Shown here piece by piece: positions 33,764 through 61,293 of a stretch of DNA of 64,000 bases; positions within the stretch are counted from its first letter, which is position 1, and each line of letters begins with the position of its first letter. Position numbers and translations under genes: made by a program. Source of the DNA: Halobacteriales archaeon QS_9_68_17 (GTDB lineage: Archaea; Halobacteriota; Halobacteria; Halobacteriales; Natronoarchaeaceae). The stretch lies in contig PXSA01000002.1 in NCBI GenBank assembly GCA_003023565.1, positions 1-64,000 on the forward strand, read 5' to 3'. The notes under the pieces were generated by a model. It was given only the letters and a program-made list of their open reading frames with translations. It made no database searches and had not been told where the DNA came from.

Positions 33764-34795
33764 ATGGAGACGCGTAAAGTGCAGCGACTCGGCCCGTCCA
33801 CGCTGGCGATGACGCTCCCCGCCGAGTGGGCGCAGGAACACGACGTCGAGAAGGGCGACGAGGTGTCGCTCCGCATGGGCGGCAAGGGCACCCTCACGGT
33901 GATGCCCGAATCCGCGACCACGGGCGAGACGGAGGCGATCATCCACGCCGACGACCTCGACGCCGACGCCGTCGAACGGGCGATCCTCGCGCAGTACGTC
34001 CTCGGCCGGCGGGTCATTCGCGTCGAGCAGTCCAACGGCGCGCTCGATTCGGACCACATCAACGCCGTCTACAAGGCCGAGACCCAGCTGATGGGCCTCG
34101 GCGTCATCGAGGAGACGCCCGAGAGCATCTCCATTCGGTGTTCGGTCGACCCCGAGGACTTCACCCTCGACAACCTGCTCGAACGGCTGGAATCGACGGG
34201 ATCGACGATGCGCGGCGAGGCGATCAAGGCGCTCGCCCACGGTAACCCCGACCTCGCCCAGCGCGCCCTGAACCGGGAGCGACAGGCCAACAAGATCTTC
34301 GTTCTCCTGCTGCGCCTGATCTTCACCGCCTACCAGAACCCCAACCTCGCCCGCGCGGTCGGCCTCGGCGACGGCTTCCCGCTTATCGGCTACCGCTCGA
34401 TCGCGAAGAACCTCGAACTCACCGCCGACAACGCCGAGGACATCGCCGAGATCGTCCTCGACTCCGAGGGCCACAGCCTCGACGTCGACGCCGGCACCAT
34501 GCGGCGCATCCGGGAGTTCACCGACGACGTGGACGAGATCACCGCCTTCGCCGTCGAGTCCGCCGTCAAGCGCGACTACGACCTCACTATCGAGGTCCGC
34601 GAGAAGTTCCACGACATCGGCGACCGGCAGGAGGAGATCCTCTCGGACCTGCCCGAGATGGAGAACGACTCCCTGCTCGAAGTGCGCGAGGTGCTCGTGA
34701 GCCTCCAGCAGACCGCGGAGTTCGCCATGCGGAACGCCGAGATAGCCGCTAACCTCGCGCTGAACGAGGAGAGCGAGCACACCACGATCAACTGA
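33764..34795 (+). CDS. AbrB/SpoVT-type DNA-binding plus PhoU domain regulator
   Basis: A 343-residue protein. Residues 1-45 form a swapped-hairpin AbrB domain (RKVQRLGPSTLAMTLPAEWAQEHDVEKGDEVSL); residues about 120-330 are two PhoU three-helix bundles with EEGH-type metal-ligand positions replaced by acidic residues (DVDEITAFAVESAV). Such fusions are common in haloarchaea and are thought to regulate phosphate transport genes. No pst genes are in the window. The gene is followed by a dense palindrome array. Confidence 0.82.
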   Translation: METRKVQRLGPSTLAMTLPAEWAQEHDVEKGDEVSLRMGGKGTLTVMPESATTGETEAIIHADDLDADAVERAILAQYVLGRRVIRVEQSNGALDSDHINAVYKAETQLMGLGVIEETPESISIRCSVDPEDFTLDNLLERLESTGSTMRGEAIKALAHGNPDLAQRALNRERQANKIFVLLLRLIFTAYQNPNLARAVGLGDGFPLIGYRSIAKNLELTADNAEDIAEIVLDSEGHSLDVDAGTMRRIREFTDDVDEITAFAVESAVKRDYDLTIEVREKFHDIGDRQEEILSDLPEMENDSLLEVREVLVSLQQTAEFAMRNAEIAANLALNEESEHTTIN

Positions 34796-34804
34796 AAAGC
34801 CCTC

Positions 34805-35098
34805 GCGACCGACTGGCGTCGGTCGCTTCGCCCTTTCGATGTGCTCAAAAACGGCGCGCCGCGCCGTTTTTGTCACCCTGAAGCGCCGCCGGCGCTTCGG
34901 ACCTCGCGGCAGCGAAGCTGCCGATCAGTGCGAAAAACGCCCGCAGGGCGTTTTTCAGCATCACCGCGAGGATCGCTTCGCGGTTCTCGCCAAGGCCCGC
35001 CGGTCTGCGCGAGCCACCGTGAGGCCTCCGGCCTCACGAGCCTTCACTCGCTCCGCTCGTGAAGACGCCGACGGTCGTCGGCGCACGCTCCGAGCGCC
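34805..35098. repeat. Array of at least seven palindromes, mostly with three-base loops
   Basis: Perfect inverted repeats follow one another: 34805-34826 (9-nt arms, loop tggc), 34846-34872 (12-nt arms from caaaaacggcgc, loop gcc), 34880-34898 (gaagcgcc, loop gcc), 34907-34923 (cggcagc, loop gaa), 34932-34956 (11-nt arms gaaaaacgccc, loop gca), 35018-35038 (cgtgaggcc, loop tcc), an imperfect one at 35042-35064 (loop tcc) and 35066-35083 (cgccgac, loop ggtc). Two carry A-tracts and T-tracts and could act as bidirectional terminators. No gene is visible in the stretch. Confidence 0.75.
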
Positions 35099-35254
35099 TG
35101 CCCTTCCCCGTCTGCTCGGCGCCCGGTTGGCAACGTCGTTTTGGCTACTGCACGCGACGTTTCCCCCTCTCGGTAACACCACATCGCGGAGTATGCGGTC
35201 GAATCCGACGGATCCCGGCCGTTATTGACGTTCTCGTTGTCCATCGCACGGACC

Positions 35255-36575: not shown

Positions 36576-37310
36576 ATGACCAGCGGTCGCACTCCCGCGC
36601 CTGCGGGACCTCCATCGGACATCGAACGAGCGTGGCTGCGTCGCGAGGTGAGCACCGGCCCCGGCGACGGCGCGCTCTCGCGCGTCGACGCCGTCAAGGA
36701 CGAGCGCTTCCGCCGGTGGGACGTCGTGACGCCGAGCGCGACGCTCATCGGCCGCGCCGAGGGTCCCGAGGGGGATGTCGACGAGAACGTGCGCCGCCTC
36801 CACGACGAGCAGCACCCGGCGATGCAGGGCCACAGCGCCCGCATGCACCGTCTGGAGAAGGCCCGGATCACTCACGCGTTCTGTAACACGCTGTCGCTCA
36901 CCGCGTGGGAGCGCGACCGCGCGCTCGGCATCATGGTCGACCTCGACCTGACGGCGTTCGGCAGCCAGCGCGCCATCCAGAAGGTCGCGCTCGTCGTCGT
37001 CCAGTACGTCGTCGACGAGGAGCGAAAGCGACGGCTCGGCCTCCACGACGACGAGTGGGTGCGCGAGCAGGACCCCGAGACGCTGGCGGAACTGTCGGAA
37101 CGCTTCGAGTCCCTGAAAGACGACCCCCGGTTCGAGGACCTGATGGAAGCACACGGCCTCGACGTGACCGCCGTCAACCGCCTCACCCGCACGCTCCGGG
37201 ACCGACTCGACGAACAGGACCTCGACGGCGCGGCGCTCGGGCGCTCGCCCTACCGCGACCCGAGCATGCCGGCGATCCGGGAGCGAGAGGACGGAGACGC
37301 CAGCACGTAA
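36576..37310 (+). CDS. rpoeps: DNA-directed RNA polymerase subunit epsilon (haloarchaeal)
   Basis: A 244-residue soluble protein matching the haloarchaeal family annotated as RNA polymerase epsilon. Recognisable stretches are RRWDVVTPSATLIGRAEGPE, DEQHPAMQGHSARMHRLEKARITHAFCNTLSLT and MVDLDLTAFGSQRAIQKVALVVVQYVVD, followed by a cyclin-like helical part ending GRSPYRDPSMP. The family is restricted to haloarchaea and its exact role in transcription is not established; some relation to TFB-type helical repeats is possible. Start set by the TATA box 30 bases upstream. Confidence 0.8.
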   Translation: MTSGRTPAPAGPPSDIERAWLRREVSTGPGDGALSRVDAVKDERFRRWDVVTPSATLIGRAEGPEGDVDENVRRLHDEQHPAMQGHSARMHRLEKARITHAFCNTLSLTAWERDRALGIMVDLDLTAFGSQRAIQKVALVVVQYVVDEERKRRLGLHDDEWVREQDPETLAELSERFESLKDDPRFEDLMEAHGLDVTAVNRLTRTLRDRLDEQDLDGAALGRSPYRDPSMPAIREREDGDAST

Positions 37311-37650
37311 CCGACCTCACCCTATTTCGCTCACCCTGACGGGTTCGCTCGTGGAGGGTGGGGCCACCGATGGAACGAGTTCCATCGAGGCCTCGAAAGG
37401 CTTCGCCTTTCGGTGGCCGGGCTACTACGGCCCGTGATACCGGCGACGTGGGCGACGGTATCACTGGACTGGTGTACGGCAGCCCTCATAAAAATGCGTC
37501 GGGTGGCGAGTCGGACGGCAGTAGTCCTGCGGTTTGTTTCCCATCGTGTCGGCTTCCTCCCTGGCCTACTCGCGTCGTGCTTCCGACGTATCGGAAGCCC
37601 TCGCTCCTTGAGGCCGGGGGGCTCCGCCTCGGAAGCCGCTGAAACGGCCG
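37311..37650. repeat. Nested palindromes and a possible decayed IS605-type end
   Basis: At 37362-37418 an outer inverted repeat (ggccaccga / tcggtggcc) encloses gatggaac/gttccatc (37369-37386) and cgaaaggc-ttc-gcctttcg (37394-37412, three-base loop). A further pair, gtgatacc/ggtatcac, spans 37434-37464. Near 37590-37625 the sequence ggaagccctcgctccttgag followed by gccggggg resembles, with differences, the hairpin ends of the IS200/IS605-type elements at 1-139 and 43310-43633, so an eroded MITE is possible. No gene is apparent. Confidence 0.45.
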
Positions 37651-55809: not shown

Positions 55810-56010
55810 CGACCTTTTGCGCTGCGTAGCGCGAACCACGGCGTGCCCGAAAATCGCTTTGCGGTTTTCGGCATCACGAGACGGCTCCGCCGTCTCGAAC
55901 GACTTCGCGCCGAGTTCGCTTGACTCGGCAAGCGGTCGATCGAGATCACTTCGTCACCCCCTCAAACGCGCTTCGCGCGGTTTCGAGGGTTCCGTGCGAC
56001 GCATCGTTCG
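55810..56010. repeat. Palindrome array with three-base loops
   Basis: Visible units: gcgct/agcgc around 55819-55832; ccgaaaatcgc with loop ttt and an 11-nt partner (55847-55871, one G-T pair); cgagacggc-tcc-gccgtctcg (55877-55897); gccgagt/actcggc (55909-55929); and cgcgc-ttc-gcgcg (55967-55979) within a larger imperfect repeat ending ggtttcgaggg. The region separates the convergent PAPS-family gene and a small membrane protein gene, so some hairpins may end transcription. Confidence 0.65.
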
Positions 56011-60132: not shown

Positions 60133-60425
60133 TCGGCGTCACCGTCTCTCCGTTCACTGCAGTACGGTCACCGACCCGCGTGTTTCGGCCGAAGCAACCA
60201 TCGAAGAGGGGCGGCGATCGAGGCGAACGGCAGCGCCGCCGCCGTTTCCGACGAAACAGCATTCGCGAACGGAGAGCGGTTCGGCTTCGGAGCGAAGCTC
60301 TGAGGGACCTCTGCTTGCTCCGTTCGCAAAGACACCGCGGCCGAGCGAGCGAGGCCGCGGGGTTTTTTGGCCGAGCTTTTTGCTCCGAGTGGTCGCGCGT
60401 AGCGCGACCCGAGGAGTAAAAAGGT
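60133..60425. repeat. Palindrome array before korB
   Basis: Units seen: gcgaacggag/ctccgttcgc (60265-60274 and 60318-60327) enclosing gcttcg-gag-cgaagc (60284-60298); ccgcggcc/ggccgcgg (60335-60360); and ggtcgcgc-gta-gcgcgacc (60391-60409), the last followed by aaaaagg. The array separates the convergent lipoprotein and korB genes; T-runs (ggttttttgg, gctttttgc) next to hairpins suggest terminators. Confidence 0.6.
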
Positions 60426-60429
60426 CGTT

Positions 60430-61293
60430 CTAGTAGAACTCGCGGACCAGATCCATCGCGTCCTCGGGCGCGCCGTCCGGGATCTCGGCCATGTTCTCGT
60501 CGAGGCCGTGGAGGTCGCTGTAGGGGACGGAGTCCTCGTCCTGATAGATGACGCCCTGGTGCTCCTTGTCGGCGTCGAGGATCTTCTCCTTCGCGGCGTC
60601 GCGGTCGGAGGGGTCGTGGTCCTCCTCGGCGAGGTCGACGATGGAGTCGCGGAAGTAGTCGTAGGTGTCGACGTCGTTGAACGTCACGCACGGCGAGTAG
60701 ACGTTGACGAAGCCGAAGCCGTCGTGTTCGATAGCCTTCCGGACGATCTCGGTGTGGCGCTGGGAGTCAGAGGAGAACGACTGGGCGATGAACGTACCGC
60801 CGGCGGCCATCGAGAGCGCGAGCGGGTTGACCGGGGGTTGTTTGGGACCCTCGGGGGTCGTGCTCGTCTCGAAGTCCTCGCGCGAGGTGGGCGGGGCCTG
60901 CCCCTTGGTGAGGCCGTAGATGCGGTTGTCCATGACGACGTAGGTCATGTCCACGTTCCGGCGGACGGCGTGGATGAAGTGGCCCGCGCCGATGGAGTAG
61001 CCGTCGCCGTCGCCGCCCGCGACCATCACTTCGAGGTCGGGGTTGGCGAGTTTGACGCCGGTGCCGACCGGGAGCGCGCGCCCGTGGACGCCGTGGAGGG
61101 CGTACGAGTGCATGTACGTCCCGATCTTGCCGGAACAGCCGATGCCGGCGCAGATGAACGTGTTGCCCGGGTCGTTACCGGTCTCGGCGAGCGCTTTCAT
61201 CATGCCGTTCATCGTGCCGAAGTCGCCGCACCCGGGACACCAGGTGGGCTGCTTGTCGGATTTGAAGTCAGTGAATCGGATATCCGAGCTCAT
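60430..61293 (-). CDS. korB: 2-oxoacid:ferredoxin oxidoreductase, beta subunit
   Basis: A 287-residue thiamine-diphosphate subunit. Motifs: TWCPGCGDFGTMNGMMKALA at the start, CAGIGCSGKIGTYMHSYALHGVHGRALPV, and the ThDP/Mg site GGDGDGYSIGAGHFIHAVRRN with MDNRIYGLTKGQ. With the alpha subunit it decarboxylates a 2-oxoacid to acyl-CoA and reduces ferredoxin in the oxidative TCA cycle; assignment to 2-oxoglutarate rather than pyruvate is from overall resemblance. Its start overlaps the korA stop by four bases. Confidence 0.88.
   Translation of the reverse strand: MSSDIRFTDFKSDKQPTWCPGCGDFGTMNGMMKALAETGNDPGNTFICAGIGCSGKIGTYMHSYALHGVHGRALPVGTGVKLANPDLEVMVAGGDGDGYSIGAGHFIHAVRRNVDMTYVVMDNRIYGLTKGQAPPTSREDFETSTTPEGPKQPPVNPLALSMAAGGTFIAQSFSSDSQRHTEIVRKAIEHDGFGFVNVYSPCVTFNDVDTYDYFRDSIVDLAEEDHDPSDRDAAKEKILDADKEHQGVIYQDEDSVPYSDLHGLDENMAEIPDGAPEDAMDLVREFY

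Follow-up and report, generated by a model that had tools for sequence, protein, structure and literature searches.

The palindromes at 34805-35098 of the window, by which we mean the whole 64-kb stretch of DNA that was analysed, belong to one copy of a haloarchaeal intergenic element, which occupies 34794-35110 together with a decayed third hairpin beyond it. This multi-hairpin element is previously uncatalogued: nothing in Rfam scored above the gathering threshold, and permissive covariance-model scans were empty or at chance level, which rules out a known RNA family. A coding function of the array is ruled out by its position between called genes. From the sequence we propose, with a probability of about one half, that the element would serve at gene boundaries as a transcript-end and insulator signal, and that its palindromes would be kept up by hairpin-templated copying.

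Anatomy of a dispersed modular element

Perfect hairpins with three- and four-base loops are indeed present where the preliminary description had placed them. Its view that the palindromes share a geometry and not a consensus is, however, overturned: the array represents a dispersed element whose copies are homologous in sequence and whose ends, linkers, orientation and sites are all conserved, and self-similarity searches rule out a family defined by geometry only. With the 315-base array as query, BLAST gave 25 matches in the same genome and, in the four congeners, 10 to 16 per genome, and we count 12-13 copies of the element in this Halostella genome and 9-16 in the four congeners. The full core architecture, of about 160 nt and three hairpins, runs in the order hairpin 1, ATGTCCGCCAGG linker, hairpin 2, GCCNGCCCTTCCCCG, hairpin 3 and CGGCC. 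One anatomy is found in 37 copies aligned by their right end. Hairpin 1, with TGGC at its apex, lies within a GAAAG/CTTTC outer stem and is followed by an ATGTCC linker and by a slot that holds between zero and several triloop hairpins. Next come a AGGCCCGCC linker and, optionally, another slot; after these stand hairpin 2, whose loop is GGTC, then GCCTGCCCTTCCCCG, and finally hairpin 3, with CGGCC at its end. In Halostella the copies have become larger through the insertion of triloop hairpins at fixed slots. The window copy has additional hairpins of the AAAAACG type and no longer an intact hairpin 3; its features are as follows.

33764-34795, plus strand: gene for a PhoU/AbrB-like phosphate-signalling regulator (open reading frame; weak phoU NCBIfam match below the cut-off)
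34794-34847, plus strand (that of the upstream gene): left module, with the outer GAAAG/CTTTC stem, hairpin 1 (34805-34826, X-TGGC-X', arm 9) and the ATGT linker (match to model R1 at 34789-34847; covariation)
34846-34956, no strand: inserted hairpin modules within GTGCTC...AGCAT, at 34846-34872 (arm 12, loop GCC; in an alternative, shrunken form arm 13, loop 1), 34880-34898 (arm 8, loop GCC), 34907-34923 (arm 7, loop GAA) and 34932-34956 (arm 11, loop GCA) (hairpin scan; same insert in the same slot of locus L246, from another family)
34966-34990, no strand: inserted module M3, GCGAGGATCGC-TTC-GCGGTTCTCGC, loop TTC, two of its pairs being G.T (other copies have the stem in perfect form, AGAATCGC-TGC-GCGATTCT)
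34991-35017, no strand: core linker AGGCCCGCC...GCGCGAGC (corresponds to CCAGGMCCGC where other families have short copies)
35018-35064, no strand: module M5, a triloop hairpin at 35018-35038 (arm 9, loop TCC here and GAA, GGA, TTC, GTT or AAC in homologues) and a hairpin at 35042-35064 (TCC triloop; conserved internal 2x2 mismatch TC/TC, GA/GA on the other strand) (copy alignment)
35066-35083, no strand: hairpin 2 of the core, CGCCGAC-GGTC-GTCGGCG, loop GGTC or GT (covariation)
35084-35110, no strand: right conserved tail GCACGCTCCGAGCGCCTGCCCTTCCCCG (core GCCNGCCCTTCCCCG), in which GCC..CC...CCCCG is nearly invariant across families (nhmmer and copy alignment)
35111-35127, no strand: truncated remnant of hairpin 3 (full in the orthologous copy of congener G001, GCGCTCGGC...GCCGAGCGCGGCC)

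The PhoU-like gene ends in TGA (34793-34795), and the last two bases of this stop codon are also the first two of the element. Orthologues of the protein are 94-99% identical in four congeners and 94% identical in H. pelagica DL-M4, whose copy of the element has the same position but other internal hairpins. A double-hairpin insert (GTGCTC-hairpin-GGCATGC-hairpin-CAGCAC) occupies the same slot in loci L246 and L359, from two haloarchaeal families, with differing stem sequences, reflecting either common ancestry or transfer of an insert module. To the right of several elements (L190, L191, L185 and L186, in two Halostella genomes) there are repeated palindromic motifs of the GGTAACC/GGTTACC type.

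The shuffled-control comparison called for in the preliminary description bears out the excess of loop-3 palindromes, which has a sharp maximum at 3 inside a peak from 1 to 4 and is intergenic. In the window, 16 inverted repeats have a loop of 3 and are perfect over arms of at least 8, against 2.75 in dinucleotide shuffles; the figures for 456 kb of the genome are 64 against 15.3. With genes masked, 28 such palindromes were intergenic, against 2.0. In 221 kb of intergenic DNA, taken from 1.19 Mb of the organism's own sequence, there are 53 against 6.4, while other loop lengths give 32/8.6 (loop 1), 31/7.2 (loop 2) and 22/8.0 (loop 4), observed over shuffled, and loops of 5-12 mostly one to three times the shuffled count, with loop 11 higher (19/4.5). 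Coding DNA holds 36 loop-3 palindromes against 20.6 and has a comparable mild excess at other loop lengths, so that the units reported inside genes, where the excess is weak, are not specific to loop length. GNA or TNC makes up 34 of the 53 intergenic triloops against 10 of 64 in shuffles. A GNA loop closed by C-G is among the most stable DNA triloops. Among short triloop hairpins genome-wide, no 2x2 mismatches are more frequent than TC/TC and GA/GA (50 against 14.8 expected). The assembly consists of 42 contigs and is 89% complete, and gene calls came from a simple script based on codon usage. Element density in the 1.19 of 2.88 Mb analysed is overestimated, because this sequence was partly chosen for holding copies.

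As for the other palindromes listed in the preliminary description, those at 60284-60409 are part of a second dispersed family, distinct from the array element. This intergenic family (60260-60430 in the window) has the form GGTCGCGC-GTA-GCGCGACC within a CTTTTT...AAAAAG stem, has at least six relatives in Halostella DNA and, at this locus, ends near the stop codon of a minus-strand gene. The unit at 37394-37412 lies within repeated DNA; intergenic positions 37300-37643 are 93-100% identical to the start of contig C18 (L169), which represents either a longer repeat or an assembly edge. For 55847-55897, a second copy was not found in the DNA searched.

Placement and conserved sites

The left end of the element is set with precision relative to the neighbouring gene. 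When that gene lies on the same strand (48 copies), the left end falls -1 to +5 nt from the stop codon in 44, and in 24 of the same-strand copies the element and the stop TGA have two bases in common. When the gene on the left is divergent (25 copies), the left end is 37-46 nt from the start codon in 20, just upstream of where the BRE and TATA box should lie. The right side is placed more loosely, often with a gap of less than 30 nt. The same-strand arrangement accounts for 30 of the 37 copies in the first Halostella set; background intergenic regions are split roughly evenly.

A covariance model of the left module found the element in 54 of 196 genomes of the order, and a broader model in 95 of 394 (39 of 95 genera), with E-values that are rough; in a sample of the phylum, zero positives came from outside the Halobacteria order. 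Copy number is mostly 8 to 16 in Halalkalicoccus and reaches 8-23 in some genera. In the Natrialbaceae the element is single-copy, and it follows fttA in all 16 loci whose flank was read; it also follows fttA in Halalkalicoccus, in Halostella and in a fourth family. The identity of FttA is supported by a match to PDB 9bct over the whole protein length (E 2.6e-206). The most conserved copy is the one at fttA, which hints at a link between the element and FttA. Other sites common to two or three families lie after glutamate dehydrogenase and after a small SWIM-type protein, named from sequence, and the PhoU site is common to Halostella and Halalkalicoccus; further genes upstream of copies encode GyrB, Orc1/Cdc6, EF-1 beta and an NADPH-F420 reductase. 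The preliminary description had reasoned that arrays conserved at orthologous sites in distant genera would point to ordinary terminators, and this pattern is found in part, in that the core is conserved at such sites in other families.

Close relatives differ in the presence of the element at the same gene, the comparison that the preliminary description had suggested: at the PhoU-1 site it is found in four of five species and is absent in G002, and at the PhoU-2 site it is found in two of five. Downstream DNA at phoU sites with and without the element is too diverged for clean insertion junctions. Both PhoU paralogues of the organism's own genome carry the element right after the stop codon, and three congeners lack it behind the second (L210-L219).

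Stem covariation and loop evolution

Covariation reaches 0.442 in hairpin 1 (0.172 shuffled), 0.624 in hairpin 2 (0.208 shuffled) and 0.516 (0.146 shuffled) in the left module of 83 distinct copies from several families; in all three cases, none of 500 shuffles attains the observed value. In a core alignment across families (12 sequences), hairpins 1 and 2 contain zero one-sided pair changes and many two-sided ones, and among close copies 52 stem changes are two-sided against 12 that are one-sided. G.T pairs account for 0.5-2.7% of element stem pairs as opposed to 7.8% in 34 tRNAs from the same sequence set, and are too rare for maintenance at the RNA level to be the whole explanation. Where hairpin 1 is unpaired at inner pairs 2-3, TC opposite TC is commonest (18 cases), the other cases being mostly alignment gaps.

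Homologous hairpins with fixed flanks show the reverse-complement loop pairs TTC/GAA, TCC/GGA and GTT/AAC, and the TGGC loop of hairpin 1 was seen once in the inverted form GCCA. Such closure under reverse complementation extends to 18 of 19 loops, as is also attained in 151 of 20000 column shuffles; with 19 loops the test is only moderately significant, and the preference for GNA on either strand explains part of it. The TGGC loop of hairpin 1 and the linker GCCA could form a kissing contact, about which covariation says nothing, since both are nearly invariant.

Two-sided changes in the absence of intermediates and inverted loops in homologous hairpins are the footprints attributed to template switching by Monttinen and Loytynoja (PMC8794818), who assigned 69 loop inversions in rRNA to this process. 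The cases described there concern rRNA and microRNA genes, with inversions being rare, whereas here the element is dispersed and intergenic and both loop orientations are found among copies. These footprints support one part of the preliminary description, in which the palindromes were ascribed to a hairpin-based mechanism, with which the rarity of G.T pairs also fits; the mechanism itself is inferred, and a palindrome family of shared geometry and no consensus is unsupported. In our proposal, hairpin-templated replication, by template switching or snap-back, would use one arm as the template for the other; this would yield perfect stems and inserted triloops, would alter both members of a pair in a single event and would sometimes invert the loop; a length of three would correspond to the smallest loop easily formed by a DNA hairpin (C-GNA-G or its complement). 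Selection for Watson-Crick pairing only would, however, also make G.T pairs rare.

Proposed function and its alternatives

In the copies, the T tract after hairpin 1 reads CTTTTC, CTTTTT or CTTTC, often T4C, and the complement of hairpin 1 likewise finishes with GGGCTTTC or CTTTTT. In Haloferax volcanii, the terminator signal with experimental support is a T-stretch and then C (PMC7237163), and the element resembles the T-stretch/hairpin terminators of haloarchaea in placing a hairpin and then T3-5(C) directly downstream of genes, just past the stop codon. In contrast to them, it is a conserved three-hairpin architecture of 160 nt that is not confined to the downstream side of genes, 21 of 83 copies lying between divergent genes. 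Hairpin 1, flanked by an A-tract and the T3-5(C) tract, may constitute a roughly symmetrical termination or 3'-end signal, which would stop transcription that leaves the gene, or that enters the gene's 3' end or promoter from the far (right) side; termination there may involve FttA. A symmetrical terminator/insulator fits both placements, because it would shield either a 3' end or a promoter from right-hand transcription. The copies between divergent promoters contradict a pure terminator and weigh against the transcript-end part of our proposal, as they need no 3' end and only the insulator half fits them. Moreover, a terminator would need neither the conserved linkers nor hairpins 2 and 3, and the T tract of the window copy is T3 only.

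It is possible, if unlikely, that the element is instead a non-autonomous mobile element, mobilised in trans (PATE-like, IS200/IS605-derived or REP/RAYT-like) and inserting at the edges of transcription units. Its dispersal, with 8-23 copies in some genera, and its presence or absence at orthologous genes (missing after phoU-1 in G002, present after phoU-2 in two of five species) would be accounted for, and its single-stranded hairpins with GNA loops and GA/GA mismatches resemble the substrates of HUH transposases. PATEs of Haloquadratum walsbyi, in the part of their description available to us (PMC3119063), provide a haloarchaeal precedent that is likewise short, non-coding and dispersed, with palindromes near its ends and no terminal inverted repeats. 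PATE ends, however, match IS605-type transposons of the same genome, and the same part of that source does not describe PATEs as tied to stop codons or as kept at one gene in several genera. Here, the ends were not shared with any of nine TnpB and four Y1 loci, none of which has the left module (R1), so that IS605/TnpB or Y1 ends are rejected as the source; the Y1 transposase (PF01797) is found in G001 and G003 and is missing from the organism's own genome (89% complete), G002 and G004. Unlike those of a MITE, the two ends (GAAAGCCC... and ...CGGCC) do not form inverted repeats of any useful length. The bacterial REP/BIME/REPIN sequences with their RAYTs (PMC3116915) are also intergenic, dispersed and hairpin-forming, with modular arrays downstream of genes; the present element differs in its much longer three-hairpin core, its conserved linkers, stems that vary freely with pairing kept in place of a short palindrome of conserved sequence, and the lack of a RAYT, PF01797 being absent from the genome. 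Nor does a fixed single copy at fttA across the Natrialbaceae, or anchoring to stop codons exact to the nucleotide, suggest transposition. The element was not found on plasmids, apart from an unrelated 45-bp match in Methylobacterium. Viral carriage was also considered and rejected: an 18-base pattern hit 32 scattered contigs, probably by chance.

The flush left side and looser right side, the conserved linkers and the deep covariation would suit a stand-alone structured non-coding RNA gene on the strand opposite the upstream gene, with its 3' end (GGGCTTTC) abutting the neighbour and its promoter needing the wider space on the right. Read on the opposite strand, hairpin 1, M2 and the TC/TC hairpins between them have triloops of the GNA type, a loop of the GNNA type and GA/GA as tandem mismatches. 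We nevertheless consider such a gene quite improbable, because a conserved TATA box or BRE was not seen by eye to the right of copies, the right-hand gap is often under 30 nt and wobble pairs are very few on either strand. The original suggestion of a hairpin mechanism with no functional element behind it draws on loop inversion, on two-sided changes and on the loop-3 excess outside the elements, to which 33 of the 53 intergenic palindromes belong; it could hold for isolated intergenic triloop palindromes. For this array it is contradicted, and overall very improbable, since a mutational process alone cannot give linkers, orientation and sites conserved across families. Chance palindromes in GC-rich DNA would agree with the near-shuffled level in coding DNA, but are refuted, to the point of being negligible, by the intergenic count (53 against 6.4 expected) and by covariation that 0 of 500 shuffles reach.

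Our preferred reading, a transcript-end and insulator element with hairpin-templated upkeep, can be extended in a way that we regard as rather doubtful. The structured 3' element may have arisen at fttA, or been ancestrally tied to it, where it would report on FttA or be acted on by it, in a form of autoregulation. It would later have been copied to dozens of boundaries, in Halostella and Halalkalicoccus, as a termination/insulation regulon, growing in Halostella by triloop hairpins that template switching keeps and whose loops it flips. Haloarchaeal terminators have been described mainly as T-stretches, and a structured element of this kind is absent from Rfam. An element that hugs stop codons and promoters and has been kept after fttA across families may offer a handle on gene insulation in archaea and on the self-regulation of FttA. 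Its natural copies are numerous and show both inverted loops and stems changed on two sides, which would make it a test bed for template-switch mutagenesis.
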